Source: a virus. From it: a DNA stretch of 38,879 nucleotides. The DNA lies in IMG/VR virus record IMGVR_UViG_3300029448_000124, positions 1 through 38,879 of that record, one strand, 5' to 3'. The position numbers were made by a program, and so were the translations under genes. Under the pieces are notes generated by a model that saw nothing but the letters and a program-made list of their open reading frames with translations, did not search any database and was not told the origin of the DNA. Positions within the stretch are counted from its first letter, which is position 1, and each line of letters begins with the position of its first letter. Shown here one piece after another: positions 19,638 through 34,117 of this stretch.

Positions 19638-19639
19638 GC

Positions 19640-19651
19640 GGTAAATTTACC
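19640..19651. promoter_or_regulatory. 12-base perfect palindrome in the late leader
   Basis: GGTAAATTTACC lies 2 bases upstream of the small terminase start codon and within its leader. A perfect 12-base palindrome at this place could be a protein-binding operator or could affect ribosome access. No regulator can be assigned. Confidence 0.5.
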
Positions 19652-19698
19652 TCATCCAAGGGGCAAATCTTGCGCACCTATACCAAACAAGGTAACAA

Positions 19699-19740
19699 AC
19701 AATAGTATAATGGGCAGCACCTTGTCAAGCCCTATAGGGC
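19699..19740 (-). promoter_or_regulatory. Candidate late promoter with abutting palindrome
   Basis: On the minus strand a perfect TTGACA (19728 to 19723) is followed by a possible -10 TATTGT at 18 bases (19704 to 19699); a better match, TATACT, lies at a too-short 13 bases. The perfect palindrome GCCCTATAGGGC (19729-19740) touches the -35 on its upstream side. The small terminase start is about 60 bases downstream. A sigma-70-type promoter with an operator is the simplest reading. Confidence 0.55.
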
Positions 19741-19929
19741 ATCTAATTTTTTAGGGGGCAATATATATATATATATACCGAACGCGTAGCAGGAAGTCGA
19801 CCCCCGCCCCCCCTCGCGCGCGCGCACGGGCGTTACGCTACGCGCACACACGCGCGTATAATGCCCCGCGCATTACGCGTGTACTATTAATTTATTTAGG
19901 CGAGCTAGAACGTATTTGTGGCGCGGTTT

Positions 19930-19954
19930 GGGTTTGGGTTTGGGTTTTGGGGGG
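19930..19954 (+). other. G-quadruplex motif
   Basis: Four G tracts (19930-19932, 19936-19938, 19942-19944, 19949-19954) are separated by loops TTT, TTT and TTTT. This is a textbook four-tract quadruplex sequence with telomere-like GGGTTT units, on the plus strand at the divergence point. The last tract runs directly into the first GGGTACCC palindrome. Confidence 0.8.
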
Positions 19955-20043
19955 TACCCGCTTTTTGCTTTTTGGGGGTACCCGCTTCCCGCTTGTTTTG
20001 GGGTACCCGTAAAAAAGTTAAATGATTGCTTGACGGGGTACCC
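19952..20043. repeat. Cluster of four GGGTACCC palindromes
   Basis: GGGTACCC occurs at 19952-19959, 19976-19983, 20001-20008 and 20036-20043. Each is preceded by extra G and followed by a G (GGGGTACCCG), and the centres are 24-35 bases apart. They lie just upstream of the first early gene. Unlike the downstream intergenic copies, they are not followed by long T runs, except for a TTTT after the last. Confidence 0.85.
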
Positions 20044-20103
20044 GTTTTATGATTCTATCCTTTCAACGTCGCAATTAAGCGGCGCAATTAAACCAAAAAA
20101 ATA

Positions 20104-21096
20104 ATGAATCAAACAGACTCAAAATTGCTAGCCAATACGGCTATGAATCCGCTTAAAACCATAGGTTTGGAGCTAGAATATCACGATTACAGCAACAGCG
20201 CGAAGTCGCATATGCTTGCGCGCAAATTGAACGAGCGCGGGCTAAACGTTAGCATCAATCTCAACTCGCATCTCGGCGGGTTTACGGGCGAGGGCGACGG
20301 TTGGCACATCAAGCGCGACGGTACCCGCGGGCGCTTTCCAATACGCGAGATTGTATCAACGCCAATGTGTGCTGAAAAGTTGTTTTTTCAGTTATACATT
20401 TTGACTGAAGTAATCCGCGAACTTAACGAGGAAAATTTGCAAGCTTACCGCGCTGAAAATGCGGAACGCGAGGAAATATTTAGCGTTGATAGGGATTGCG
20501 GTTTGCACGTGCATTTTGACGCGAAAAGATACAACGAAAAGCGCTTGCGTTATATGGTCAATAATTGGGTTAAAAATGAGAATAATTTTCTCAGTATTAT
20601 TGCCCCAAGTCGACGCAATAACGGGTTTTGCCGCACGTTTGCGCCGCATTTAGACGACAGTTTAAACTATATGCAATGCGAGGGCGAGCGCTACCATCAC
20701 TTAAATTTAAACGCTTATCGCAAGCATAAGACGATTGAAATTAGAAGCCATCAAGGGACGCTAAATTTTGCGAAAATCGTTTATTGGACGGCCTTTTGTC
20801 AAGGTATCGTTGAAAGCTCGCTTACAAGCGTAAAGCGTACCGCGGGTTACAATAACCCAATGTGTAACTATTTGTTACAGGGCAAGTGGGCTACCCGCTA
20901 CCGTCCAAGCAATGACGCGCCTTGGGGCTTGCTTGCTAAGAACGACGCGAGCCAAGCGCTTCTCTTTTACGTGAGCGCGCGTATGAATCACTTTGGGGTA
21001 CAAGCCGCGCCCGTTATCTACGACCGCAACGAGGTACAAACGACCGCGCCAAGCGCGGTTGACGTTGTCCGCGATGGGGATTTATGCAGCGCGTAA
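20104..21096 (+). CDS. Amidoligase (Amidoligase_2 family, glutamate-cysteine-ligase-like fold)
   Basis: This 330-residue protein has motifs of the phage/bacterial amidoligase family (Pfam Amidoligase_2): GLELEY at 21-26, a W-H-I-K-x-D segment at 67-72, REIVSTP at 81-87, DCGLHVHFDA at 131-140, YHHLN at 197-201 and TIEIRSHQGTL at 210-220. Such enzymes use ATP to join a carboxylate to an amine, and have been proposed to modify peptides, proteins or cell-wall material. It is the first early gene, and the next large gene encodes a glutaminase/cyclotransferase fusion, which fits a shared pathway. Codon use is much richer in CGC and GCG than in the late genes, suggesting transfer. No clear ribosome-binding site precedes the ATG, which follows an A-rich stretch. 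One GGTACC copy lies at 20320-20325. Confidence 0.88.
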   Translation: MNQTDSKLLANTAMNPLKTIGLELEYHDYSNSAKSHMLARKLNERGLNVSINLNSHLGGFTGEGDGWHIKRDGTRGRFPIREIVSTPMCAEKLFFQLYILTEVIRELNEENLQAYRAENAEREEIFSVDRDCGLHVHFDAKRYNEKRLRYMVNNWVKNENNFLSIIAPSRRNNGFCRTFAPHLDDSLNYMQCEGERYHHLNLNAYRKHKTIEIRSHQGTLNFAKIVYWTAFCQGIVESSLTSVKRTAGYNNPMCNYLLQGKWATRYRPSNDAPWGLLAKNDASQALLFYVSARMNHFGVQAAPVIYDRNEVQTTAPSAVDVVRDGDLCSA

Positions 21097-21108
21097 AACT
21101 CAAAATAT

Positions 21109-21144
21109 GGGTACCCCTAATCAAAAAGGGGGTACCCCCTTTTT
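21109..21144 (+). terminator. Two GGGTACCC hairpins after the amidoligase gene
   Basis: A GGGTACCC at 21109-21116 is followed by a 22-base perfect palindrome at 21123-21144: five A, five G, TA, five C, five T. The second can fold as a G/C stem flanked by an A/T stem with a T run, like an intrinsic terminator in either direction. It lies 12 bases beyond the amidoligase stop. Confidence 0.7.
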
Positions 21145-21170
21145 AACAAATTAAATTAAATTAAAACAAA

Positions 21171-21347
21171 ATGAAAAAAGAAATATTATACAGAATAATT
21201 AGATTCAGACAAAACAAGCCAAGTCAACGCGTACGCGGTTTAAATTATCTTACACGCGAGGAAGCGCAGCGCATATGCAGCGACCCGCGCACGAGCGGCA
21301 GGACGTGGTTTTACGGCTTCCAAGCGATGGAAGGGAGCGAAGTCTAA
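21171..21347 (+). CDS. Small protein with LTREEAQ...SDPRTS motif
   Basis: This 58-residue protein (MKKEILYRIIRFRQNKPSQR start) has the order RGLNYLTREEAQRICSDPRT, then WFYGFQAMEG. The pattern G-L-T-x-E-E-A-Q-x-x-C-x-D-P-x-T-S followed by W-F-x-G recurs in small phage and bacterial proteins of unknown function. Its GC-rich codons match the amidoligase. It sits between two terminators, and its stop overlaps the next tiny frame as TAATG. Confidence 0.7.
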   Translation: MKKEILYRIIRFRQNKPSQRVRGLNYLTREEAQRICSDPRTSGRTWFYGFQAMEGSEV

Positions 21348-21430
21348 TGCGCTCATTAAGATACACGCAGCGCGAACGAAGGCGCGCCCGATGGTTTAAG
21401 CGCATTGCGTACAAACTCAAGATTGCTTAA
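21347..21430 (+). CDS. 27-residue highly basic peptide
   Basis: The frame starts by TAATG overlap with the previous stop and ends 6 bases before a terminator. The peptide, beginning MRSLRYTQRERRRARWFKRI, has about 12 Arg/Lys in 27 residues. The exact fit between the coupled start and the terminator supports translation, but its short length makes it uncertain. Confidence 0.45.
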   Translation: MRSLRYTQRERRRARWFKRIAYKLKIA

Positions 21431-21436
21431 CACAAG

Positions 21437-21459
21437 CCCCGCAGAAATGCGGGGTTTTT
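21437..21459 (+). terminator. Intrinsic terminator with GAAA tetraloop
   Basis: CCCCGCA (21437-21443) pairs with TGCGGGG (21448-21454) around a GAAA loop and is followed by TTTTT. This is a classic rho-independent terminator on the plus strand, closing the amidoligase/small-gene unit. It is unrelated to the GGTACC palindromes that follow. Confidence 0.9.
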
Positions 21460-21469
21460 CTTTGCCTGG

Positions 21470-21795
21470 AATTTCACAGGAGCAAAAAGGGGGTACCCCT
21501 TTTTTTATTACTGGGAGAAATCTGGGAGCAAAAACTGGAGTCACCAGGTAGTCCCCAGAACGGGAGCAAAAGGGGGGTACCCCTTTTTTTTATTTCACCT
21601 GGAGGATTTTCTTTCTGTGTCTGGACGAACCAGGAGGACTAGAAACAGAACCAGAACGAGGGGGGTACCCCTTTTTTTGTTTCACCTGGAGAAATTAATG
21701 GCGCATATCCTGTGGCTGTGAACGAAGGGGGGGGGTACCCCTATTTTTCAAATGAAGGCTGGGCTGTTAACGAAAGGGGGGTACCCTATTTTTTG
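21470..21795 (+). repeat. Array of five GGGGTACCCC hairpins in a noncoding gap
   Basis: Palindrome cores lie at 21490-21499, 21574-21583, 21662-21671, 21732-21741 and 21779-21786. Most are preceded by a purine run (AAAAGGGG or GAAGGGG) and followed by a T run, so each could act as a terminator. The spacers also repeat: TTTCACCTGGAG occurs after the second and third copies, a GGAGCAAAA block precedes the first two, and GCTGTGAACGAA / GCTGTTAACGAA precedes the last two. A frame over 21712-21930 only translates these repeats and is not annotated. The whole gap 21431-21954 has no supported gene. Confidence 0.85.
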
Positions 21796-21849
21796 AAAAG
21801 CTGCTGGGTTTTGCTGTCGCGCAAGGGAAAGCAGGACGAGCTACGCTCG

Positions 21850-21905
21850 AAAAGTTTTTTAAAATTTTTGTTGACAAGGACGAGAGCCTGTGCAATATTA
21901 CTTCC
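21850..21905 (+). promoter_or_regulatory. Strong sigma-70-type promoter of the amidotransferase operon
   Basis: An A/T-tract stretch (about 21851-21869) resembling an UP element precedes a perfect TTGACA at 21871-21876. After 17 bases comes AATATT (21894-21899), preceded by TG at 21891-21892, an extended -10 element. The predicted start near 21906 gives a leader of about 50 bases to the ATG at 21955, which has AAAGGA upstream. Confidence 0.75.
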
Positions 21906-21954
21906 AATGCTCGATTCAGAGCAGCATTAAAACAATCAAACGAAAGGATTCAAA

Positions 21955-22938
21955 ATGTGTTTAATCATACACAAGCCACAAGGCAAACGTATTCCGCAGG
22001 AGTACATCAACAACGCGAAGCGTATCAATCCGCACGGATTCGGTTACACTTACCTCGACACGGGCGAGACACACCGTACGCTAAGTTACAACAAGGTCGA
22101 CAAGATTCTTGATACAGACAGACCGCTCGTTGCGCACTTCCGCTACGCTACGGTCGGACTCGTGAACAAGCAGAACGTACACCCGTTCCCGATTACCAAC
22201 GCGCCGAGATACGAGATTTACTCGAACGGCACGATTGACGGGTACGGCAACATTACTTGCAGCGACATTCGCTTCGTTGCAGAGCGCGTACTTGGTAATA
22301 AGAAACGCGAAAAGTGGGTACCCTTTCTTAAGAAAACGGACACCCGATTCGCTATCGTTGACACCCTAACGGGCAAGGTCAAGCGCGTCAATACGTGGCA
22401 CCTACGTAACGGGGTTTACTATTCAAAAGATAATTGCTTCGGCAGATACCGCGTCGCCGTGTACGGTACGCTCAAGCAAGGCTTCGGCAACTCGCACTTG
22501 CTCAAGACAAGTAAGTTTGTAGAAGCAGGTAGAACAAAAAGCAGGTACCCCCTTGTAGTTGACGGGCTTCCGTATCTGTTCGAAGAACAAGGGCGCGGTC
22601 AACAAGTACGCGTCGAGGTGTACGACGTATCGCACCGCGTGCTAGCTAGGCTAGACAGTCTAGAGGGACACCCTGCATTTTACGAGCGCAAGCAAATCGA
22701 CATCGAGCTTGACGATTGGAGCCAAACCAAGGCGTGGGTATACTTCGCCCGCAATGCTTCCTGCACAAGCGAGGACGGACACCATCACGCGGAATATTTC
22801 GGCGCCAAGGTTAACCGTTATTGGGAGAAGCCAACCGAGCAAGAACTACGCGAACTGAACGGAGACGATTGGTTCGTTGAAGACGAGGAAACTCAAGCCA
22901 ACTACGAGATGTCTCGTAGAGATTACTTAACACAATAA
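21955..22938 (+). CDS. Fused class II glutamine amidotransferase and gamma-glutamylcyclotransferase
   Basis: Two domains are visible in 327 residues. Residues 1-160 look like an Ntn-type class II glutamine amidotransferase: Met is followed by Cys2 (MCLIIHKP), the expected nucleophile after Met removal, then HFRYAT at 61-66 and NGTIDGYG at 91-98. Residues 165-290 look like a gamma-glutamylcyclotransferase/AIG2-type domain: VAVYGTLKQGFGNSHLL, VDGLPYLFEE and LARLDSLEGHPAFYERKQ. The first would release ammonia from glutamine; the second would cleave or cyclise gamma-glutamyl amides. Next to an amidoligase this suggests a route that makes and trims amide-linked glutamyl groups. AAAGGA lies before the ATG. 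GC-rich codons match the amidoligase. GGTACC copies lie at 22317-22322 and 22544-22549. Confidence 0.85.
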   Translation: MCLIIHKPQGKRIPQEYINNAKRINPHGFGYTYLDTGETHRTLSYNKVDKILDTDRPLVAHFRYATVGLVNKQNVHPFPITNAPRYEIYSNGTIDGYGNITCSDIRFVAERVLGNKKREKWVPFLKKTDTRFAIVDTLTGKVKRVNTWHLRNGVYYSKDNCFGRYRVAVYGTLKQGFGNSHLLKTSKFVEAGRTKSRYPLVVDGLPYLFEEQGRGQQVRVEVYDVSHRVLARLDSLEGHPAFYERKQIDIELDDWSQTKAWVYFARNASCTSEDGHHHAEYFGAKVNRYWEKPTEQELRELNGDDWFVEDEETQANYEMSRRDYLTQ

Positions 22939-22957
22939 TTAAACGAAAGGAAATAAA

Positions 22958-23194
22958 ATGATAAAAGACCCAATGATTCAAATCAGAAACAATAGATTTA
23001 AATCTATTAGAAACAAACTATGCACCGCGCTTGAAATGATAGATTCAGACAAGCTATGCGGACACGAAATTGACGAGGTGTACTGCATCGCAGACAACTT
23101 AATAGAAACATCGCAGCTTGAGGGAATGATTACATACAAGCACGCGAGCGAACTGAACGAATGGCTAGGCAAAATCGAGCAATACACAAACTAA
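22958..23194 (+). CDS. Small early protein of unknown function
   Basis: This 78-residue protein begins MIKDPMIQIRNNRFKSIRNK and is mostly helical, with CGHEIDEVYCIADNLIETSQ in the middle. A good AAAGGAAA ribosome-binding site lies just before the ATG. It follows the amidotransferase by 19 bases in the same operon. I recognise no family. Confidence 0.7.
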   Translation: MIKDPMIQIRNNRFKSIRNKLCTALEMIDSDKLCGHEIDEVYCIADNLIETSQLEGMITYKHASELNEWLGKIEQYTN

Positions 23195-23208
23195 AGAAAG
23201 GAATCAAA

Positions 23209-23349
23209 ATGAAACAAATGATTACAAAAAAATTTATTTTGTGGGTTGGGGGAATTGACAATCATTTCGACAACTTGCTTGACGCTGAAATTGCTTTAAT
23301 GGAATGGAAGCAAAAAGGGTATACTGATTTAATAATAGAAAGGAAATAA
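23209..23349 (+). CDS. 46-residue early protein
   Basis: I place the start at 23209 (MKQMITKKFILWVGGIDNHF) because GAAAGGAA lies 7 bases upstream; the open frame extends further but only into the previous gene. The product has the small-protein pattern FILWVGGIDNHFDNLLDAEI, then KGYTDLIIERK, seen in short phage proteins of unknown function. It ends one base before the lysozyme-like gene. Confidence 0.65.
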   Translation: MKQMITKKFILWVGGIDNHFDNLLDAEIALMEWKQKGYTDLIIERK

Positions 23350-23350
23350 A

Positions 23351-23752
23351 ATGAACATACAAATTATAAAATTAGTAATGGCACTCGCAGCGGTGGAGAC
23401 GGGCGGACACCCGAACCCGCCGCAGGCGATAGGCGACGGAGGTCGTAGCGTAGGAATCTTACAGATTAGCAAGGCGGTCGTAGACGACGTGAACAACTTC
23501 AAGGGGTACCATTACACCTACGAAGACAGAACGGACGTACAGTCGAGCGTAGAGCTATGTATTTTCTATTTAGACCATTGGGGTAATCATTATACCAAGA
23601 AGACGGGCAAACCCGCAGACGTTCGCACTCTCGCGCAGATATGGAACGGGGGCGCGCTTGCCTGGAAGAAGACAGACCCGAAGGTTGTTAAAAATTTAAC
23701 AGACTATTGGAACAAAGTTAGATTTGAATTAATAAAGAAAGGGGTACTATAA
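23351..23752 (+). CDS. Lysozyme/transglycosylase-like endolysin candidate
   Basis: This 133-residue protein resembles a goose-lysozyme/SLT-type glycosidase: Glu16 in ALAAVETGG is the likely catalytic acid, SVGILQISKA (33-42) matches the conserved G-x-x-Q motif and IWNGG (97-101) matches the usual Y/W-N-G-G substrate loop. It would cut peptidoglycan glycan strands. No signal peptide is convincing, so release would need a holin, or the protein acts as part of the cell-wall cassette with the amidoligase. It has AAAGGAAA before its ATG and GC-rich codons in the core. It is the only lysis enzyme I find, and it is oddly placed in the early strand. Confidence 0.8.
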   Translation: MNIQIIKLVMALAAVETGGHPNPPQAIGDGGRSVGILQISKAVVDDVNNFKGYHYTYEDRTDVQSSVELCIFYLDHWGNHYTKKTGKPADVRTLAQIWNGGALAWKKTDPKVVKNLTDYWNKVRFELIKKGVL

Positions 23753-24096
23753 TGCAATATGCAAAAAGATTAAAAGAAAAAGATTTATACCCACAAGGTT
23801 ACGTGGGTGTATCACGCAAGGACGGCGCGATTGACAAGTCAACGCACTTTCTTGTTTCGATGGACATACAAGACGGAGAGTTTCAATATACCGATAGATA
23901 CATCGAGGTATTCAAAGAACTCAAAAGTCACGACGAAGCCTGGAAGCAACTGAAAGAAGAAGAATGGGGGTACCTGGATTTCGACGAAGAGGACGAAGAA
24001 CACGAAGCCCGCGATTGGAATGATAGAAAGTTTAGTATAGGCATCGAGCATATTGATACACGGCATGTGCAAATACTTGAGAAATATTTACATTGA
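23752..24096 (+). CDS. Acidic early protein of unknown function
   Basis: This 114-residue protein starts by TAATG overlap with the lysozyme-like stop, with AAAGGGG upstream. It has a basic start (MQYAKRLKEKDLYPQGYVGV) and a very acidic middle (WGYLDFDEEDEEHEARDWND). A GGTACC lies at 23969-23974. It is the last gene before a terminator. No family is recognised. Confidence 0.7.
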   Translation: MQYAKRLKEKDLYPQGYVGVSRKDGAIDKSTHFLVSMDIQDGEFQYTDRYIEVFKELKSHDEAWKQLKEEEWGYLDFDEEDEEHEARDWNDRKFSIGIEHIDTRHVQILEKYLH

Positions 24097-24110
24097 TTCG
24101 TTTGATTCCA

Positions 24111-24145
24111 GGGGGTATCTCAGAAATGGGGTACCCCCTTTTTTT
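24111..24145 (+). terminator. Terminator built on a GGGGTACCCC palindrome
   Basis: GGGGGTA (24111-24117) can pair with TACCCCC (24132-24138), or the GGGGTACCCC at 24128-24137 can fold alone; both end in TTTTTTT (24139-24145). This shows directly that the palindrome family can take the place of a terminator. It separates the accessory cassette from the next transcription unit. Confidence 0.8.
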
Positions 24146-24174
24146 ATACTTATTTCTACATCTTGTGTTTTTTC

Positions 24175-24209
24175 TTGACAGAGGCACAAGATATTGCGAT
24201 ACTCCAACT
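24175..24209 (+). promoter_or_regulatory. Sigma-70-type promoter driving a leaderless start
   Basis: Perfect TTGACA (24175-24180), a 17-base spacer, then GATACT (24198-24203). Six bases later is the ATG at 24210, so the predicted first transcribed base is the A of that ATG. There is no ribosome-binding site between the -10 and the start. Confidence 0.75.
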
Positions 24210-24467
24210 ATGAACGACCCATATATTAAATTAATAAAACAAAAAGAAAGGGAATCCAAAGACGGATTCAAACGCGCAAGGGAAATAGTGAAAGCTTTTG
24301 CTAAATACATAAAGTTTCCTAGCGAGAAAGAAATCAATAAGTACAGAACCCCGCGCAACAATAGGCTTGACGCGGTGCTTGAGTACCTTACTGATACTTA
24401 CATATCAAAAGAACAATTAGAACACAAAGAAAGGATTAAAGAAAATGAGCAATATGACAAGCGATAA
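24210..24467 (+). CDS. Small helical early protein, probably leaderless
   Basis: I choose the ATG at 24210 (MNDPYIKLIKQKERESKDGF) rather than an upstream start, because the upstream stretch holds a terminator and a promoter. The 85-residue product is helical and strongly charged, with FAKYIKFPSEKEINKYRTPR and a C-terminal Glu/Lys-rich tail. It is the first gene of the replication/recombination operon. It has no known family; a DNA-binding or regulatory role would suit its charge and position but is a guess. Confidence 0.7.
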   Translation: MNDPYIKLIKQKERESKDGFKRAREIVKAFAKYIKFPSEKEINKYRTPRNNRLDAVLEYLTDTYISKEQLEHKERIKENEQYDKR

Positions 24468-24651
24468 ACTCCCCGAATTATTATACATCGAGGAATGCGA
24501 AGACTGCGGAGGACGCGGCGATTGGGATACTGGATTAGGAATTTATGACTACTCCGTTTGCTCCAGTTGCGACGGAACTGGGATAAATTCTTGGGCAGTA
24601 GAACAAAATAAAATCATACGAGAACAGAACGGGGGCAACGATGGAAGATGA
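24445..24651 (+). CDS. DnaJ-type zinc-finger small protein
   Basis: This 68-residue protein holds two C-x2-C pairs, ECEDCGGRGDW (Cys18, Cys21) and VCSSCDGTG (Cys39, Cys42), in the CxxCxGxG style of DnaJ zinc-finger repeats. Phages often encode such one-finger proteins of unknown function. It starts within the previous gene with a good AAAGGA upstream, and overlaps the next gene by 11 bases. Confidence 0.75.
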   Translation: MSNMTSDKLPELLYIEECEDCGGRGDWDTGLGIYDYSVCSSCDGTGINSWAVEQNKIIREQNGGNDGR

Positions 24652-24922
24652 ATTAATGCAGCACCCCGTCGTTTACGTTGTACTAACTCAACATCGTGGT
24701 AAGTATATGCCGCATTTCTTTTCTTGCGGCACAGAAGCAGAGGATTACTATCACGAATACCTGGAGCTAATGCGACCCAATAACGCTTTGCTTTGTGTAC
24801 TACAACAAGGCGAATACTTTGGTAAGAAATATTTATCCAAGGGATTACCTTTAGAATTACAAAGCAATGATGCAGCGGGTATTACACTTGACGAAATGGA
24901 AAGAGCGCAGTATGAAAAATAG
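24641..24922 (+). CDS. Small early protein of unknown function
   Basis: This 93-residue protein (MEDELMQHPVVYVVLTQHRG start) has mixed alpha/beta character and contains FFSCGTEAEDYYHEYLELMR and a C-terminal acidic helix. Overlap with the zinc-finger gene and a 2-base gap to the next gene support translation. I recognise no family. Confidence 0.65.
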   Translation: MEDELMQHPVVYVVLTQHRGKYMPHFFSCGTEAEDYYHEYLELMRPNNALLCVLQQGEYFGKKYLSKGLPLELQSNDAAGITLDEMERAQYEK

Positions 24923-24924
24923 TA

Positions 24925-25374
24925 ATGGAATATATAACAATTCAAACCAGGTACGCGGTAGAATTTGGGGTACCCCAAGCCATTGCTTTACATACAATCA
25001 CTTACTTTGTACTCAAAAATAAAAATGAAAACAGAAATAAAAAAAATGGAAAATATTGGACATTCAATTCCTACAAGGGGTGGCGAGAAGCTATGCCTTT
25101 CTACACCGAGCATCAAATCAGAACTGCGTTGCGTTCATTACGGGACAAGGGAGCAATCCTTACGGGGAACTATAATAAAATGGGGTACGATAAAACCTAT
25201 TGGTATACGCTTGCACCTCGATTGTTACAAGAAGCAGAAGCATCGGAATATTGGCGAAGTCGTATTAAAAAAGCTAAGTCAAAAGCTATTAATGCCACCG
25301 ACAAATCTGCCGCACCCACCGACAAATTTACCTCACCAATACCAAACAAGTATATAGAAATAGAACCGTATTAA
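24925..25374 (+). CDS. Winged-helix DNA-binding protein, likely replication accessory
   Basis: This 149-residue protein shows the phage winged-helix pattern often labelled replication protein: YAVEFGVPQAIALHTITYFV (10-29), WTFNSYKGWREAMPFYTEHQ (45-64), IRTALRSLRDKGAILTG (65-81), then NYNKMGYDKTYWYTL, the wing. The C-terminal tail is Lys/Thr-rich. It lies upstream of nuclease, annealing protein and helicase genes. A 14-base GGGGTACCCC-centred palindrome (24965-24978) sits inside its early codons. Role as an origin-binding or helicase-loading protein is inferred. Confidence 0.75.
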   Translation: MEYITIQTRYAVEFGVPQAIALHTITYFVLKNKNENRNKKNGKYWTFNSYKGWREAMPFYTEHQIRTALRSLRDKGAILTGNYNKMGYDKTYWYTLAPRLLQEAEASEYWRSRIKKAKSKAINATDKSAAPTDKFTSPIPNKYIEIEPY

Positions 25375-25433
25375 TGAGAACTATAAAATTACTAACTAAA
25401 AGAACTAGGGTAAAACCTAAAAAGAAAAAATAA
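25374..25433 (+). CDS. 19-residue basic peptide (tentative)
   Basis: A tiny frame starts by TAATG overlap with the winged-helix stop and ends one base before the next ATG. It encodes MRTIKLLTKRTRVKPKKKK. The exact fill of the gap and the strong basic bias, like the 27-residue peptide at 21347, make it worth listing, but length alone gives little support. Confidence 0.35.
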   Translation: MRTIKLLTKRTRVKPKKKK

Positions 25434-25434
25434 C

Positions 25435-26196
25435 ATGGGAGGACATTTTTACGATTGCAAGGGTACCCCTTATTTAACCGAAGCAAGAACACCCGTTCAA
25501 GCTCGTAAGCTCAAAGCTTATCCATCAGTAACTACTGTACTTAGTATTCAGATGAATGATTTCTTACATAACATTTGGATGCCGAGAAAGTTAGTTGAAC
25601 TAGCAAGAGACAACCCAACAATGCCCGTGCAAGAGATACAAGAACTCAAGTACGGACAACGTGTTTGCCCTGCTACTGGTAATAAAATAAGCTCATCATC
25701 ATTTGGTACATCAGTTCACGCTAGACTTGAAGAGGTATTGAATCATCGGATATTTGGCGAAGGATTAGAAAACGAGGGTACCCCCTTTGACGATTGGGCA
25801 GAACCTTTTATAGATTTCATAGACAAGAATAACATTAAGCCACTTGCTACTGAAAAGATTGTCTACTGCGACAAGATGAAAAGCGCAGGGTCAGTTGATT
25901 TGATTGCAGAAGTAGACGGCAAAGTACATTTGTTTGATTACAAATGCAGAGATACAAAAGGAACTGGAGGTAAGTTTTACGAAGAGAAGGACTGCACTCA
26001 GTTAGCGATTGAATCTAAATGGCTGCAGCAATCTATGGACTTGAGTTACGAGCCAATGATTACGAGCGTCTGTATATGCACAGAAAGCAAGAAACATTAT
26101 CACAAAAATTGGACTAAAACTCAGATGCGCAAAGCAGTCACGCGCTTCAGATATTTGAACAGATTGTACAGAATAGATTGGATGAAGGCGAAATAA
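25435..26196 (+). CDS. PD-(D/E)XK exonuclease (RecB/Cas4-like)
   Basis: This 253-residue protein has the nuclease layout of phage RecB/Cas4-type exonucleases: GTSVHARLEE (91-100), a Glu at 140, SAGSVDLIAEVDG (150-162) with Asp155, and FDYK (167-170) as the catalytic DxK, followed by a Gln motif in CTQLAIES (187-194). Such enzymes resect DNA ends to feed single-strand annealing proteins, and an Erf-like gene lies downstream. Copies of the palindrome at 25461-25468 and 25776-25783 encode Gly-Thr-Pro. Confidence 0.85.
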   Translation: MGGHFYDCKGTPYLTEARTPVQARKLKAYPSVTTVLSIQMNDFLHNIWMPRKLVELARDNPTMPVQEIQELKYGQRVCPATGNKISSSSFGTSVHARLEEVLNHRIFGEGLENEGTPFDDWAEPFIDFIDKNNIKPLATEKIVYCDKMKSAGSVDLIAEVDGKVHLFDYKCRDTKGTGGKFYEEKDCTQLAIESKWLQQSMDLSYEPMITSVCICTESKKHYHKNWTKTQMRKAVTRFRYLNRLYRIDWMKAK

Positions 26197-26447
26197 TGGG
26201 TAAATACGATTCAGCTATTATTATGTCTAGATGGCACGTAGATTTAGACGCGGAACAAGAAGAATATTTAGGAAGAAAGCTCACAGATGGAGAGTGGCAC
26301 ACACTTAGAGCAATGCTAGAGGGAGACCTTTATCGTTCAAGTGTCATAGAAAAGTATGTAAAATATTCGAGGTACTTTATTAAAGAACTTTCCAAAGGTA
26401 GAACCCCCGAAGATATAATGAGCAAACCAATTAGAATTATAAAATGA
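26196..26447 (+). CDS. Small early protein of unknown function
   Basis: I choose the ATG at 26196 (MGKYDSAIIMSRWHVDLDAE), which overlaps the exonuclease stop (TAATG) and has AAGGCG upstream; an in-frame start 18 bases earlier is possible. The 83-residue product is helical, with YLGRKLTDGEWHTLRAMLEG. It overlaps the next gene by ATGA. I recognise no family. Confidence 0.65.
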   Translation: MGKYDSAIIMSRWHVDLDAEQEEYLGRKLTDGEWHTLRAMLEGDLYRSSVIEKYVKYSRYFIKELSKGRTPEDIMSKPIRIIK

Positions 26448-26791
26448 ATTTTTGCGAAGACTTTAAGCACGACTTAGAAGTAGGACTTGTCGCCGAAAAA
26501 GAGATAGCAGATATGCTAGAGAACTCTACGGTAGAAGTTAAACGAGACATTATTGCTAAGACAACGGGGAGAATATTTGTTGAGTACAGTTATAAAGGTA
26601 GACCTAGTGGTATATCAAAAACGCAAGCAGACTTTTATTGCTTTGTTGTAGGGGACTTAATTATTTTTTACGAAACCAAGAAGCTTAAAAATTTAATTAG
26701 ACCTATGCTTGGAACCGATGCAGATATATGCGGAGGAGATAACGACCAAAGCAGAGGCATACTACTACCACTTAAAAAATTAATACCGTGA
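26444..26791 (+). CDS. PD-(D/E)XK-like nuclease (small phage type)
   Basis: This 115-residue protein contains VEVKRD (30-35), GRIFVEYSYKGRPSGISKTQ (42-61) and AD at 62-63. The order Glu-Val-Lys, then Val-Glu-Tyr, then x-P-S-G-I-x-x-T-x-A-D is found in small phage endonuclease-like proteins of the restriction-endonuclease/resolvase fold. It may act on recombination intermediates. The assignment is by motif memory and moderate. It starts inside the previous stop. Confidence 0.65.
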   Translation: MNFCEDFKHDLEVGLVAEKEIADMLENSTVEVKRDIIAKTTGRIFVEYSYKGRPSGISKTQADFYCFVVGDLIIFYETKKLKNLIRPMLGTDADICGGDNDQSRGILLPLKKLIP

Positions 26792-26952
26792 AGAAATACG
26801 AAATATTTTATAAGCATACAGATATGAACCCCGACTATACGGGTTACACTACAAAATGGGCGAACGATGAAAAACAAGCCAAGAAGTATGTTACAAAAAA
26901 TAAACCTTACATAAGAGTTACTGCAGTTAATGAAATACGTACCCCAAACTAA
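26788..26952 (+). CDS. 54-residue protein with GTG start
   Basis: A frame starting at GTG overlaps the previous stop (GTGA) and reads VKKYEIFYKHTDMNPDYTGY, then a helical Lys-rich stretch and a beta segment PYIRVTAVNEIRTPN. It overlaps the endonuclease VII start by 23 bases. The start-stop coupling, the position in a gapless operon and plausible secondary structure support it. Function is unknown. Confidence 0.6.
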   Translation: MKKYEIFYKHTDMNPDYTGYTTKWANDEKQAKKYVTKNKPYIRVTAVNEIRTPN

Positions 26953-27370
26953 ACTAAAACAGTGGAGAGAAGACAACGCCCCAGCAAAGTGTCCAATTTT
27001 GGGGGTACCCCTAAATGATGCAGTTGTAGACCACGACCACGATACTGGAATGATACGCGGAGTATTGCACAGACAAGCAAATGCTTGGGAGGGAAAGACT
27101 TACAACGCTTGGAAAAGATACGCTAAAAACAATAGTGACCTGGGGTTTATTGATTCCCTGGAGAACATGGCGAAATATTTAAAGAAAGGGGGTACTCAAT
27201 ATTTGCACCCTACTGGATTAGTACAACTCGGTAAACGTTTTGGTAGACTTAAAAAAGAAGAACAAGTGTTTGCATTAAAAAAGTTTGGAGTAAAAAAAGA
27301 TGAAATTAATTCTTGCAATAACTCTGCAGACAGAGTAAAACTTTATAAAAATGTATTAAAAAATTTATGA
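26930..27370 (+). CDS. Endonuclease VII-type (HNH) recombination nuclease
   Basis: This 146-residue protein has the endonuclease VII core CPILGVPLNDAVVDHDHDTG (21-40) and GVLHRQANAWEGK (44-56). The DHDH (34-37), His47 and Asn51 fit the His-Me finger active site. The T4 enzyme has four zinc-binding cysteines; here I see only Cys21 in this region, so the zinc site seems lost or changed. Such enzymes resolve branched DNA before packaging. The palindrome at 27002-27011 encodes LGVP within the core. Confidence 0.85.
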   Translation: MKYVPQTKLKQWREDNAPAKCPILGVPLNDAVVDHDHDTGMIRGVLHRQANAWEGKTYNAWKRYAKNNSDLGFIDSLENMAKYLKKGGTQYLHPTGLVQLGKRFGRLKKEEQVFALKKFGVKKDEINSCNNSADRVKLYKNVLKNL

Positions 27371-27804
27371 ACATCAAAGAAAAATTAAACATATTGCAGA
27401 CAAAACTGCACGTCCCTAAAGGACAATTTAATAAATTCGGGAACTATAAATACCGTTCCCTCGAAGATATAACACTAGCAATCAAAGCACCATTAGAAGA
27501 ATTAAAATGTATTCTTTTAATGCAAAGCGTAATTGAAGAGATAGGCGGCAAGAACTATGTGAAAGCCACCGTAACATTAGCCGACTGCGAGAGTGACGAA
27601 AGTATTTCAGTTACTGCATACGCTCGCGAAGCAACAGAATCTAAGGGAATGTCGCCCGCGCAAATGACGGGTAGTTCAGATTCCTATGCAAAAAAATACG
27701 CGTTAGGTGGTCTATTAAATCTTGACGAAAGCCAAGATGACGATGCCACAAATACACACGGCAAAACAATTTCTAACACTAAACCAAGAAAGGATATAAT
27801 ATAA
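27367..27804 (+). CDS. Erf-family single-strand annealing protein
   Basis: This 145-residue protein matches the Erf superfamily: KFGNYKYRSLEDITLAIKAP (23-42), a central beta sheet (KNYVKATVTLADC) and GSSDSYAKKYALGGLLNLDE (about 102-121) followed by DDDATN. These proteins coat and anneal complementary single strands during phage recombination. The exonuclease at 25435 would generate the substrate. The start overlaps the endonuclease VII stop by ATGA. Confidence 0.88.
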   Translation: MNIKEKLNILQTKLHVPKGQFNKFGNYKYRSLEDITLAIKAPLEELKCILLMQSVIEEIGGKNYVKATVTLADCESDESISVTAYAREATESKGMSPAQMTGSSDSYAKKYALGGLLNLDESQDDDATNTHGKTISNTKPRKDII

Positions 27805-28028
27805 TGTCAGATTATGATGATACTAATACCTTCGTACTATTCTCGGAAGAGGTAGAAGAGGGGTCAAAAAAACCAAACTGCACGGGTAAGATTAACATCG
27901 ACGGTAAGCAGATGCGCCTAGCAGGGTGGAGTGGCGAATCCAAAAACGGAAGACGCTACGTACGCGGAACGTGGTCGGAGTATAAAGCTAAGACTACTGA
28001 AACAGCTAAAGAGGAGGCACCGTTTTAA
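27804..28028 (+). CDS. Small acidic protein, DUF736-like
   Basis: This 74-residue protein has a short beta core, KPNCTGKINIDGKQMRLAGW followed by SGESKNGRRYVRGTW, which resembles the DUF736-type small proteins with an OB-like pattern. The N-terminal and C-terminal ends are acidic. Placed directly after the annealing gene with TAATG overlap, it might act with single-stranded DNA, but this is a guess. Confidence 0.6.
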   Translation: MSDYDDTNTFVLFSEEVEEGSKKPNCTGKINIDGKQMRLAGWSGESKNGRRYVRGTWSEYKAKTTETAKEEAPF

Positions 28029-28372
28029 TGACGGAGCTGCCCGATAGTGGAGCAAGGACTGCATTCGATACGGGTGCAGTCCGTGACTCTATGCTAGGAA
28101 AAGGGGTACCCTCAATGATTCCTACTTGTGCAATCAAAGCAATGGCTCGACGATTCGAGGACGGCGCAAGCAAGTACGGTAAGGATAATTGGAAAAAGGG
28201 TATACCTACATCAAGGTACTGCGATGCAGCTTTCAGACATTTGATGGCGTGCAAAGATGGCGAAACAGATGAAGACCATTTTGGAGCAGTCCTTTGGAAT
28301 ATGGCGTGTTGGTTAGAAACCAAGCGTATGATTAAAAATAAAGAGTTACCTACAGAATTAAACGACTTATGA
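28028..28372 (+). CDS. DUF5664-type dATP/dGTP diphosphohydrolase-like protein
   Basis: This 114-residue protein matches my memory of the DUF5664 (dATP/dGTP diphosphohydrolase N-terminal) family: DSGARTAFDTGAVRD (6-20), IPTCAIKAMARRFEDGASKY (31-50), GKDNWKKGIP (51-60), RH at 70-71, GETDEDHFGAVLWN (78-91). The conserved Glu, His and Asp residues suit a metal-dependent nucleotide hydrolase, and a role in shaping nucleotide pools during replication is likely. GGGTACCC at 28104-28111 encodes GVP. Confidence 0.75.
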   Translation: MTELPDSGARTAFDTGAVRDSMLGKGVPSMIPTCAIKAMARRFEDGASKYGKDNWKKGIPTSRYCDAAFRHLMACKDGETDEDHFGAVLWNMACWLETKRMIKNKELPTELNDL

Positions 28373-28536
28373 GTAAAGAAAATGATTACATAGACGAGTA
28401 CAAGAAAGCTCGTAGAGGTATAGCCATTGCAGGCAAAACCAAAAAAGAAGTTATCGAAAATTTTTACAAGCAAGCTAGGTCAGATATATATTGGGGTATG
28501 AAGAAACGATATATAGACGATAAACTAGGATTGTAA
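28369..28536 (+). CDS. 55-residue small protein
   Basis: A frame starting by ATGA overlap reads MSKENDYIDEYKKARRGIAI, followed by a helical Lys-rich part (KTKKEVIENFYKQARSDIYW) and ends exactly before the helicase ATG. It fills the gap between the hydrolase and helicase genes. Charged helical character only; function is unknown. Confidence 0.65.
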   Translation: MSKENDYIDEYKKARRGIAIAGKTKKEVIENFYKQARSDIYWGMKKRYIDDKLGL

Positions 28537-29862
28537 ATGACAGATAAAGCACTACAAGAACCGTATTCATTAGATGCGGAGGAAGCCGTTGTCGCTTGTT
28601 TAATCAAGTCAGACGACGAGAGTGTATACGATAGTATTACACAGATAATAAACGTAGACGATTTCTATATAGAGAGGACTAGAATACTGTACTCTATTAT
28701 AGATGAACTACATAAAATGAGCTACCCTATAGATGAAATAACTATCCTGGAAAGGGTAAAATCTAAAGGGTATGAGGAAAAAGTTGATGGCTTTTTAGGT
28801 ATACAGAACATACTTGAAAGAGTCGAGACTACTACATCGGCTCGTTATTACGCTAATATCGTCCGTGACAAGTCGATAGCTCGCAACCTTATACGTATGT
28901 CTCGTCAAACAATAGAGGCAATCGTAGGGGGTTCTGAGGCTCGCACAGAGGCAACTAATATGGAGGGCGCGTTGGCTATTATAGCAGACAGAACTCAAGT
29001 TGAAGATTCTTTCTCAGATGCAGGGGATTTATTGCAAGATAAGCTTACTGCAATGACAGAAAATCGTTACGAATTTACTGCACTTAGCACGGGAATCGGA
29101 CATCTAGACGATAAACTTGACGAGGGTGGTATTGGTAAAGGAGAGGTATTTGTTGTTTCAGCACCTACCTCTTGTGGTAAAAGTCAGTTGGCTTTGAACA
29201 TAGTTCTTAGGGCATCAGTACAAGACGGCATACCGATTGGTATATTTAGTTTTGAGATGCCCGCAGAGCAACTAATGAAACGAATGATACAAACGGCAAG
29301 CGCAGTAAACCTTAGACGAATCAGAGAGAACGTAGCAACAGACGAAGAGAAAACTCGCGTCTTTGATGCACTCAAGAAAGTTAAAGAATCGCCAATCGTT
29401 GTTGAGCATTTTGTTAGAAGCATAGATGAACTACGTTCAAAGGCTAGGTCAATGAAGCGAAAAAGTAATATAGAAGCGCTAGTAATTGATTATCTCCAAC
29501 TTATACCATATGATACTCGTATGAGTAAGCATGACGGAATAGCATTAGTTTCACATAGGATTAAACAACTAGCAATGGAACTAAATATTCCTATTATTTT
29601 GTTGGCGCAAGTCAATAGAGAGGGAGCAAAGAGAGACTCTGGTCTATCAATGCACGACCTCAAGGATAGTGGGGATATTGAGAATGATGCAGATGTCATA
29701 TTACTTATGTGGGCTAGGGGCGGCGACCTACAAAACTGCCGCGTGTTTGATGGTAAAACATCTTACCTCGAACTAGATTATAAAATAGCAAAAAACCGTG
29801 AGGGCGAAAGAGACCTTATGGGTAAATTTAAATTCATAAACCAAATAGGAAGATTCCAATAA
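28537..29862 (+). CDS. DnaB-type replicative helicase
   Basis: This 441-residue protein opens with a DnaB N-terminal-like domain (SLDAEEAVVACLIKSDDESV, then YPIDEITILERV). The RecA-like ATPase follows: Walker A SAPTSCGKS near residues 208-216, FSFEMPAEQLMKRMI, Walker B ALVIDYLQLIP near 314-324, ILLAQVNREG and a GDIENDADVILLMW sensor region. It unwinds DNA ahead of a host polymerase, since no phage polymerase is seen. It is the last large early gene. Full length for the family. Confidence 0.93.
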   Translation: MTDKALQEPYSLDAEEAVVACLIKSDDESVYDSITQIINVDDFYIERTRILYSIIDELHKMSYPIDEITILERVKSKGYEEKVDGFLGIQNILERVETTTSARYYANIVRDKSIARNLIRMSRQTIEAIVGGSEARTEATNMEGALAIIADRTQVEDSFSDAGDLLQDKLTAMTENRYEFTALSTGIGHLDDKLDEGGIGKGEVFVVSAPTSCGKSQLALNIVLRASVQDGIPIGIFSFEMPAEQLMKRMIQTASAVNLRRIRENVATDEEKTRVFDALKKVKESPIVVEHFVRSIDELRSKARSMKRKSNIEALVIDYLQLIPYDTRMSKHDGIALVSHRIKQLAMELNIPIILLAQVNREGAKRDSGLSMHDLKDSGDIENDADVILLMWARGGDLQNCRVFDGKTSYLELDYKIAKNREGERDLMGKFKFINQIGRFQ

Positions 29863-30050
29863 TGTCACAAACAACAACTTACAGAACACCAACCGAAGAT
29901 ATACTAACTCAAGGACTGCACCAAATGACTATAGCGTGCGAGTCTCTTACCAAGCAAAATGAGATTCTCAACAAAGATGTAGAAAATCTTAAAAATAAGT
30001 TGACAAGCGCTAAAGAAAAGCTTTTATGTAATAACATAGACTTTTCTTAA
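29862..30050 (+). CDS. Small coiled-coil protein after helicase
   Basis: This 62-residue protein starts by TAATG overlap with the helicase stop. Residues about 22-55 form a leucine-containing coiled coil (ACESLTKQNEILNKDVENLK). It is the last early gene before the convergent terminator. No family is recognised. Confidence 0.65.
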   Translation: MSQTTTYRTPTEDILTQGLHQMTIACESLTKQNEILNKDVENLKNKLTSAKEKLLCNNIDFS

Positions 30051-30190: not shown

Positions 30191-30192
30191 TT
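30166..30192 (+). terminator. Convergent terminator at the end of the early block
   Basis: CGCC (30167-30170) pairs with GGCG (30181-30184) around a short loop, followed by eight T (30185-30192). Four A precede the stem, so the minus-strand transcript would also have a stem followed by T. The early genes end at 30050 and the opposite-strand gene ends at 30191. Confidence 0.7.
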
Positions 30193-33100: not shown

Positions 33101-34117
33101 CTTAATTAAGTTTTTATAGTCTATACCTATGTCAGCTATTTGTCTACTGACAATAGACGGAGTAACTTGCGCAATCCACCTACGTGCAGTCGCAGGAAGC
33201 TTTTGATATATCTTAGTTAGGTACCCTACTTTATTAGGGTCGTAGCTAGATTGTGATACTCCTGTACTTGATACACCTATAGTTTGTGTAGACTCTTCTC
33301 TTATATTAGCTTGTCTGCTTCTTTCAAACTCGTAGTCAAATGTAGGAGATGGCTTCAACCTATTATTGTCTGCGCCAGAGTTAGTCATTAATTCAAATGT
33401 ACCTAGTCTTCCTTTAGAGTCTGTGTATATAGTGTTTTCTATTTCTGCAGGAGTTTTACCTTTAAGCTTTTTAGCTAGTCCTTTACCTACTGCACCTAGT
33501 GTACCACCAAAGCCCGCTCCTATACCTGCGTACAATGCAGTTTCTTTTGCGCCTGCAAGCTCGCCCTTATCTATAATAGATGTAGCTTGAGCTTCTACTA
33601 CACCTGTAGCTGCGCCTTCTAATGCACCATACTTGATGCCTTGCTCTGCCATTTTAGTCAATCCCTTGCCTGCGCTCTTACCAAGAACCTTAATAGACTG
33701 CGCACCTGGTGTAGGTATTAGATTAATTAAACCTGCAGATATTGCACGACCCCAACTAATCTCATCTCTACCTTCTATTTTTTGCGCAGCAAGACTACCT
33801 GCTATACCAGAACCAATAGCTCCTGCAGTATATCCAACTAAAATACCAAGAGGTCCCAAAAGCCCACCTGCGGCTGCGCCTGCGTATTTACCTGCTGTAC
33901 TAACAGCTACTTCGGTACCAAGACCTTGTACTATTTTACCTGCGCCTGGACCTTCTGTATCTGAAATAGGGGTACCCCTTTTTGCTACAGGTAAAGTGCC
34001 TGCCTGTTCTTTTTCTTTTAGTTTTGCATAAGCCGCTAAGATAGTTTTACCATCTTTAGTCTCTAGCTTGTCTTGGTTGTTAACAATCCAATTTGCATAG
34101 TCTTTGATAGTAGCCAT
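30191..34117 (-). CDS. Large internal virion/ejection protein (1308 residues)
   Basis: The N-terminus reads ATIKDYANWIVNNQDK followed by ILAAYAKLKEKE, a short motif common at the start of large podovirus ejection proteins. Residues about 70-210 contain several Gly/Ala-rich hydrophobic stretches (AAAGGLLGPLGILVGY, ALYAGIGAGFGGTLGAV), suited to inserting in a membrane. The remainder is helical with no recognisable enzyme motif. By size and place it resembles proteins that form the trans-envelope channel during DNA ejection (T7 gp16-like in role). Palindrome copy GGGGTACCCC at 33969-33978 encodes RGTP. Confidence 0.78.
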   Translation of the reverse strand: MATIKDYANWIVNNQDKLETKDGKTILAAYAKLKEKEQAGTLPVAKRGTPISDTEGPGAGKIVQGLGTEVAVSTAGKYAGAAAGGLLGPLGILVGYTAGAIGSGIAGSLAAQKIEGRDEISWGRAISAGLINLIPTPGAQSIKVLGKSAGKGLTKMAEQGIKYGALEGAATGVVEAQATSIIDKGELAGAKETALYAGIGAGFGGTLGAVGKGLAKKLKGKTPAEIENTIYTDSKGRLGTFELMTNSGADNNRLKPSPTFDYEFERSRQANIREESTQTIGVSSTGVSQSSYDPNKVGYLTKIYQKLPATARRWIAQVTPSIVSRQIADIGIDYKNLIKTGEAIGGRVSQAVARETELDPRTAPAFQKFFDGGEIDPILVEKGLLGTLSEWRDFVDSQQRVLSRLLGDDAIKGLDEESQMLLMGKINASIRDKDYLAQEFEIYTNESFVVDPKLKQKAIDEIERQLDAGDDLAIGVEVFDPVSGEFTYQKTTSLFSDLEEAKIGLGQPLRNRIDYVDKGKPLVKGSPKSMDDQGVRFSNREKAASLVQEIIDNSAATRKGKALGGGKQPINAPVRARELDESTNAALMRMMGVVRDPGERARGTVSRLTRLVARASADKRMTEMLEGMNLASRNPDTPGVISLDLRGGKSGLYTSPEVNIAVNQLYASNYIENSVNGFIDGMQTTLDSGVGLSKAVKVLGNLPSYMVQFYGNMATIAQLAMANPMEVPALWNGFRVAMSDIDMLASNQKLSKEILSEIKDAERYGIKGGNIFASDIRSNLENAVGPAQKVIEPFAKVYQVPDTAFRYYGWKLMQLQLKKVYPDLADPKRAEDLKNAAAKLLNDVYQNYDKVNAAARLTTKYGLTPQFATFTMELLRNQYNQGRQIKDLLAGTLGQQLGVNLGRVDKAASMRIGAHRAAWTAATLGGATAYFSGYEKANNVTDEKRAKLLESYVEEYATNSPLIMTMDEDNTKFNYLNSSYLVPQRMIAQAFQAGMDGTDETSLMRLVRQEFVGEGAFFYVGVGQALLNKDIESGEKISTNPNDFQKFQEIMEFAIEDMFKPGQARELDKFIKAGKPGSRFSLDQVYARQLGWRVNPRDMVETGERKARKGYQDVRAVKSDWGAMINHRLEELRALPDQGESQYQEANRQYTDLMQVQRTHLNNFTYFHGADKAIDMLKTAGVSSEELAYLQAGQIPSLPRTPRVTAESVFDGLDLDLTINTEVNNEKIMQAIRSVDNPFLKKKMLNYYKRSRMDARKGLTNFEATIDALSSDTQIRILKDLYQGNTAYFKELYGKKVITKEAYYMLTR

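Follow-up and report, generated by a model that had tools for sequence, protein, structure and literature searches.

Dispersed palindromes selected as DNA words in the early genes of phages carrying an amidoligase and GATase/GGACT module

What keeps one short palindrome recurring through the early genes of a phage is the question raised by IMG/VR record IMGVR_UViG_3300029448_000124, a single virus record analysed here as one window of 38,879 bases. The element is the eight-base palindrome GGGTACCC, built around GGTACC. The window holds 19 copies of it, 18 of them within 19953-28105, and 26 copies of GGTACC, 22 of them between 19953 and 28105; the initial annotation had given the same numbers for the early stretch, though it listed three outlying GGTACC where there are four (31170, 33220, 33914 and 33971). 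In 600 order-2 Markov simulations that kept trinucleotide content, the early region (19638-30050) yielded on average 2.9 GGTACC (maximum 9) and 0.27 GGGTACCC (maximum 3), compared with 22 and 18 observed, and the remaining 28,466 bases hold 4 and 1 copies for simulated means of 5.4 and 0.10. When the 64 eight-base palindromes with six G+C are compared, GGGTACCC alone is frequent and every other has at most two copies. Avoidance of six-base palindromes, expected of phages, is also evident in the window: 24 of the 64 palindromic hexamers are wholly absent, suggesting strong restriction pressure from the host.

A DNA word in three versions

Relatives of the window carry the site in three versions, termed S0 (GGGTACCC; the window and Phage C75C1), S1 (GGGTNACCC) and S2 (GGGTAGCC). 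Between S0 and S1 the half-site spacing changes by a single base, and S2 has the length of S1 with one half altered. The versions are mutually exclusive, every record being rich in one only. Counted per word over 46 whole records, S0 records have 3-25 copies of GGGTACCC and 0-1 of GGGTNACCC, and S1 records have 2-19 of GGGTNACCC and zero of GGGTACCC; GGGTAGCC, counted on both strands, has 13-22 copies in five S2 records and 0-2 in the remaining 24 of the 29. Near-complete records have the sites in their early part (22/22 in the L342 record, 9/9 in the L014 record and 18/19 in the window), and late-side copies number one in C75C1 and two in the L006 record.

Each version exceeds expectation in a codon test on coding segments in which amino acids and the codon use of each genome were held fixed. 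The own word is in excess in S0 phages (GGTACC, 42 against 10.7 expected), S1 phages (GGTNACC, 28 against 6.8) and S2 phages (GGTAGCC/GGCTACC, 13 against 1.3). For the words of the other versions, the S0 phages have 6 GGTNACC (6.7 expected) and 4 GGTAGCC/GGCTACC (3.1), the S1 phages 0 GGTACC (5.7) and 1 GGTAGCC/GGCTACC (2.5), and the S2 phages 0 GGTACC (1.4) and 5 GGTNACC (1.7). Phages lacking the enzyme module described below have 0 GGTACC (5.6), 6 GGTNACC (4.2) and 3 GGTAGCC/GGCTACC (2.2).

Alignment of relatives places different versions at the same positions. S2 of L342 replaces S0 at 5 of the 6 alignable sites of L339, at 4 of the 5 alignable S0 sites of L340 and at both of those of L349; in the reverse direction, L339 has S0 at 5 of the 10 alignable S2 sites of L342. 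Within the exonuclease gene, S0 phages read GTG GGT ACC and TGG GGT ACC, and S2 phages GTG GCT ACC and TGG GCT ACC, a glycine-to-alanine difference that preserves the site. Site places are partly unshared, as the exonuclease sites of the window are present in L006 and not in C75C1. In the tree of the GATase/GGACT protein (below), neither S0 nor S1 forms a single group, and S0 requires at least two origins.

Together, the codon-conditioned excess and the set-wise swaps at homologous places support selection on the DNA word. The sites are selected apart from protein sequence, lie for the most part in the early half, and switch version together from lineage to lineage. Selection on DNA or RNA rather than on protein had been proposed from intragenic copies lying in several frames, and the window copies do lie in several frames; the contrary possibility, that codons and amino acids explain the copies, is at odds with the S0 figures above.

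Association with an enzyme module

The sites accompany a module of two genes, an amidoligase gene and a gene joining a class-II glutamine amidotransferase (GATase) N-terminus to a gamma-glutamyl cyclotransferase domain (GATase/GGACT). A scan of viral contigs with a GATase/GGACT alignment, blind to the palindrome, gave 57 loci, and the resulting tree has 50 rows, 39 of them different. All 30 rows of one clade (support 100/99) carry a version of the site, and none of the 20 rows outside it has one in excess. The clade accounts for 30 of the 57 loci (L331-L357, L111, L368 and L377), each with 3-25 copies of its own version; L377, counted last and unused in defining S2, has 12 S2 copies. Outside the clade, 26 loci have at most two copies of any version, and L381, with two, is the other end of the L348 record. 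Because many clade loci are near-duplicates, the number of independent lineages is well below 30.

Every one of the 21 sequences matched by tblastn with the amidoligase and/or GATase/GGACT of the window has at least four copies. Among the matches listed by palindrome pattern scans, blind to genes, four loci reach 10 copies, and each of the four has both module genes. It had been suggested that relatives without enrichment would count against the element, and the result is divided: the close relatives L007-L011, among them the module-less helicase relatives L007, L008, L010 and L011, have no sites, and other relatives have many. The bare word is not specific to the module, since most 3-9-copy matches listed in a phage-wide search for it are unrelated module-less contigs (e.g. 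L226, L263 and L328). The association observed is of the sites with the GATase-II/GGACT clade, usually with the amidoligase gene and often with a gene for a small helical protein.

Passages of one paper describe amidoligase, class-II GATase and gamma-glutamyl cyclotransferase genes together in LUZ24-like phages (PMC3890496). LUZ24 differs in encoding GATase and GGCT in two distinct genes and in having additional ATP-grasp and COOH-NH2 ligase genes, and its 45.6-kb genome holds only one S0, three S1 and two S2 copies, so that a fourth site version in LUZ24 is not supported. A paper on OM43 phages refers to a prediction of cell-wall modification by enzymes of this type (PMC10580990). Some GATase/GGACT genes have an in-frame TGA, either at codon 40 (L341 8001-, L346 7274- and L377 8001-) or at codon 119 (L342 4985- and L343 576-), reflecting a broken gene or a stop codon read as an amino acid. 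A long palindromic repeat, formed around TCGGTTTAATCGCCAATTAAACC, is present 8-9 times in L367 and L378, phages with a distant GATase/GGACT gene.

Candidate roles of the palindrome

Among the roles listed in the initial annotation, a binding site fits best. The interpretation preferred here, to which we give an about even chance, is that the palindromes are double-stranded DNA sites of one sequence-specific, probably dimeric, trans-acting DNA-binding factor, used like operators or stoperators on early genes. The sites are dyad-symmetric with A/T flanks, the extended S1 site being AAAnGGGTNACCCnTTT and the extended S0 site GGGGTACCCC flanked by further A/T. Tandem S1 spacings have a period of 10.8 bp (R 0.55, 47 spacings), and none of 1000 jittered sets was as periodic. 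By eye, a site lies in the spacer of, or beside, a predicted promoter before the amidoligase gene in the window, L331, L334, L341, L346, L347 and L354; the site-in-promoter layout of the window recurs in L331, in L341 and L346 (S2 version) and in L334 (S1-type GGTGACC). S2 copies occur on both strands in L342, L352 and L368.

Such a factor would read the double-stranded word, and changes in its preference in several lineages would have pulled the sites along. A few copies may be operators at early promoters, such as that of the amidoligase gene, and tandem copies may favour cooperative binding. Copies dispersed in early genes may act like stoperators that slow or silence early transcription, which would let the phage switch these genes off or set their timing. 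Such a factor is probably a protein of the phage itself, perhaps one that the module encodes or recruits; a host protein is also conceivable. A bolder and rather doubtful extension is that the module and the lineage-specific palindrome are two halves of one system, in which the module would produce, or work by way of, a modified protein or a DNA tag that is attached to the sites or recognised there, with enzyme and word co-evolving.

Dispersed repressor sites are known from other phages. The Streptomyces phage phiC31, which is temperate and has a known repressor, carries conserved inverted repeats (CIRs) that are spread through its early region and bound by that repressor. The closest working likeness is to the stoperators of the Cluster A mycobacteriophages L5, Bxb1 and Trixie. 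According to passages of two papers, some 20-30 stoperators are dispersed per phage genome, a minority of them at promoters, and their motif varies among related phages in correlation with the repressor (PMC6550527, PMC9283540). The palindromes are similar in that one word is dispersed in many copies (3-25 per record) and changes version by lineage. However, stoperators are 13-bp asymmetric sites of a monomeric immunity repressor, mostly oriented with transcription, whereas S0 and S1 are symmetric, S2 points in both directions in three of four loci compared (in one direction in L341), copies occur inside genes, and no repressor gene was recognised among the early proteins scanned. The system is not classed with stoperators because its sites are not oriented with transcription and no repressor was recognised. 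No account of this palindromic element was found in the open-licence literature searched.

Several observations weigh against the binding-factor interpretation. No recognised repressor or integrase was found among the early proteins scanned or in the C75C1 annotation. Comparison of six site-bearing complete or near-complete records with five lacking sites gave, besides amidoligase and GATase/GGACT, no early family present in 6/6 and 0/5; the remaining families were structural genes or the small protein, found in 4/6 (and, by profile or by eye, in two further lineages). A fast-evolving regulator could slip past such a comparison. The small protein matches no known DNA-binding fold, its AlphaFold model (pLDDT 75.8) matches no solved structure at E 0.001 or better, and its charge varies, some members being acidic. 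S0 spacings have no significant periodicity (p 0.10), TTGAC just upstream of 404 relaxed sites is only mildly above background (7 against 3.7 in the nearest filled bin), and S2 is half symmetric only, with the 16 copies of L341 all in one direction. In a first codon test with looser gene limits, control words deviated in the negatives (GGANTCC, z 5.3; GCTAGC, z 3.8); that test nevertheless agreed with the later result, and the deviating control GCTAGC is part of AGCTAGCT, a palindrome considered below. Nine partial contigs (L013, L021, L024, L025, L027, L029, L031, L032 and L033) have 1-4 S1 copies with the module genes not seen in the stretch covered, and L033, whose contig spans the neighbouring early genes, may be a real exception to the site-module rule.

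The binder first suggested, a winged-helix protein at 24925, is rejected: the protein (24925-25374) is a replication-initiator homologue, with homologues in site-less L007, L008, L010 and L011 and none detected in site-bearing L339, L340, L342, L349 and L352. A regulatory role for the small helical protein is weakly indicated. Against viral structure models its best E value is 1.9, not a match, profile libraries gave nothing convincing, and homology to LUZ24 gp20 is not supported (E 0.18 in a three-protein search).

The most serious rival, itself unlikely, is that the words accumulate as HIP1 may do in cyanobacteria, through a modification- or repair-linked bias in phage or host, the lineages drifting between words with no direct regulation. 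HIP1 is an 8-bp palindrome highly iterated in genes and reported together with orphan methyltransferases recognising internal sequences (PMC4390886). The likeness lies in an 8-bp palindrome in great excess inside genes, and the rival gains weight because sister phages carry other genome-wide iterated palindromes. Among 22 records of module-less sister phages, AGCTAGCT reaches 8-21 copies in nine, L045 with 9; the L036 and L038 records have four copies each and the remainder 0-2. CCAGCTGG is numerous in one record, that of L038, with 24 copies, compared with 0-3 elsewhere. Both are spread over whole records and, in coding sequence with amino acids given, reach 25 against 2.6 expected and 8 against 0.3. 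Yet HIP1 (GCGATCGC) is chromosomal, and the sites described here are concentrated in the early half, not genome-wide. Their flanks are rich in A/T, unlike those of AGCTAGCT and CCAGCTGG, and the sites also occur in tandem intergenic arrays and are linked to the enzyme module. No link to phage methyltransferase genes is apparent either: the N6/N4 family was found in 0/28 records and not in the window, and the C5 family (PF00145), sought in the 28 records alone, in 8/28, with and without sites. The AGCTAGCT and CCAGCTGG repeats, carried without the module by L034, L035, L038, L041, L044, L045, L050, L053 and L055 (CCAGCTGG in L038), may be a separate phenomenon, or iterated palindromes may be general in this phage family.

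That the copies in general are scattered intrinsic terminators or attenuators, in which a short G+C hairpin is backed by a T tract, is improbable. Intergenic copies have a 3' T run stronger than the 5' A run, most clearly in S0, where T occupies +3 to +7 in 69-81% and exceeds A on the 5' side; many window copies have the form AAAAGGGGGTACCCCCTTTTT. Because of this asymmetry, some intergenic sites may also terminate transcription. Terminators would fit a subset of intergenic copies, those with a 3' T run, but not the intragenic ones, whose T tracts are weaker, nor S2, which is two-stranded in the three loci named above. Hairpin energies are only slightly below those of shuffles (median z -1.5 for S0, -1.8 for S1 and -1.0 for S2), and a terminator requires neither an exact word nor a lineage-wide swap.

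A replication role, as initiator iterons or priming sites, is quite improbable: the array at the late/early divergent region, the replication-initiator-like gene nearby and the helical phasing of S1 would suit it, but copies are scattered over about 8-10 kb, gene interiors included, and some phages have an initiator homologue and no sites, others sites and no detected homologue. That the palindrome is mobile or self-spreading is highly improbable. Copy number and place do vary among close relatives, C75C1 (L005) having few of the intragenic sites of the window and half of the alignable S2 sites of L342 having no S0 partner in L339; the alignment of relatives shows, however, that empty sites differ by substitution rather than insertion, the version mutating in place by one base with reading frames intact. 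A restriction-site explanation is rejected, as sites are gained rather than lost and phage methyltransferase genes do not track them.

Genome setting and implications

Transcription in the window diverges at about 19.6-20.1 kb, with late genes leftward and early genes rightward (Table 1). The gene for the small helical protein is followed by replication-initiator-like, exonuclease, endonuclease VII, Erf, SSB, dGTP-hydrolase-like and DnaB helicase genes. The nearest named relative is Phage C75C1, with 51% of a 25-kb query covered at 81.8% identity; it encodes a C5 DNA methyltransferase amid its early genes (L005 21912-23354), and the window has none by annotation and open reading frame (ORF) list. 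A host and prophage scan of 84,980 species genomes gave 19 loci, with 27-37% identity confined to no more than the first 175 residues, and no host or prophage was found.

The non-coding stretch at 21452-21800 consists of similar units, each a palindrome plus a T run, possibly a source of small RNAs or a case of duplicated regulatory sequence. A promoter-like sequence seen by eye ends about 10 bases or less from the ATG of the small gene (window 24173-24210, and its equivalents in L005 and L334), hinting at a leaderless mRNA. The palindrome-free relative L010 has tandem TTTGCAGTTGCTTGC-like repeats in its divergent region (2080-2180), possibly replication iterons.

Table 1. Palindromic sites and associated features of the window
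Position	Strand	Feature	Remarks
19952..20043	.	Four S0 sites GGGTACCC at 19952, 19976, 20001 and 20036	Between leftward late and rightward early genes
20030..20058	+	Predicted sigma70-like promoter: TTGACG, 17-nt spacer, TTCTAT	By eye; site 20036-20043 in spacer; precedes amidoligase gene
20104..21096	+	Amidoligase gene	PF12224, E 6.3e-16; GGTACC inside at 20320
21109..21137	.	Two S0 sites, 21 bp apart	Downstream of amidoligase gene
21491..21786	.	Five S0 sites at 21491, 21575, 21663, 21733 and 21779	Mostly with T run after; non-coding, repeat-rich, ahead of GATase/GGACT gene
21955..22938	+	GATase/GGACT gene	Class-II GATase N-terminus (PF13522, E 6.5e-4, below curated cut-off); gamma-glutamyl cyclotransferase domain (PF06094, E 8.8e-24)
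22316..22323	.	S0 site in GATase/GGACT gene	S0 site at aligned place in C75C1
22544..22549	.	GGTACC without full 8-bp core	In GATase/GGACT gene
23505..23510	.	GGTACC in SLT transglycosylase-like gene	Kept in L006
23969..23974	.	GGTACC	In ORF 23752-24096
24129..24136	.	S0 site upstream of small-protein gene	S0 at aligned place in L006 and C75C1
24210..24467	+	Small all-alpha protein, 85 aa	Third gene accompanying sites; weak candidate partner of sites
24968..24975	.	S0 site	In replication-initiator-like gene 24925-25374
25461..25468	.	S0 site	In exonuclease gene 25435-26196
25776..25783	.	S0 site	In exonuclease gene; S1-type GGTCACC at aligned place in L014 and L023
27003..27010	.	S0 site	In endonuclease VII gene 26930-27370
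28104..28111	.	S0 site	In dATP/dGTP diphosphohydrolase-like gene 28028-28372
33970..33977	.	Sole S0 site of late half	In minus-strand ORF 30191-34117; homologous C75C1 ORF has one

The swap of a word as a set at many sites, even where it changes an amino acid within a gene, represents a natural experiment in the co-evolution of a factor and its targets, and predicts that the factor of each lineage prefers its own word. It also brings an enigmatic enzyme module, for which only cell-wall or peptide modification had been predicted, into connection with how the phage controls its own DNA. If module and palindrome do work as one system, they would constitute a sequence-addressed system of regulation or self-marking not described until now. 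Given that other iterated palindromes occur in the same broad family, small genomes now offer a way to test why such words are retained.

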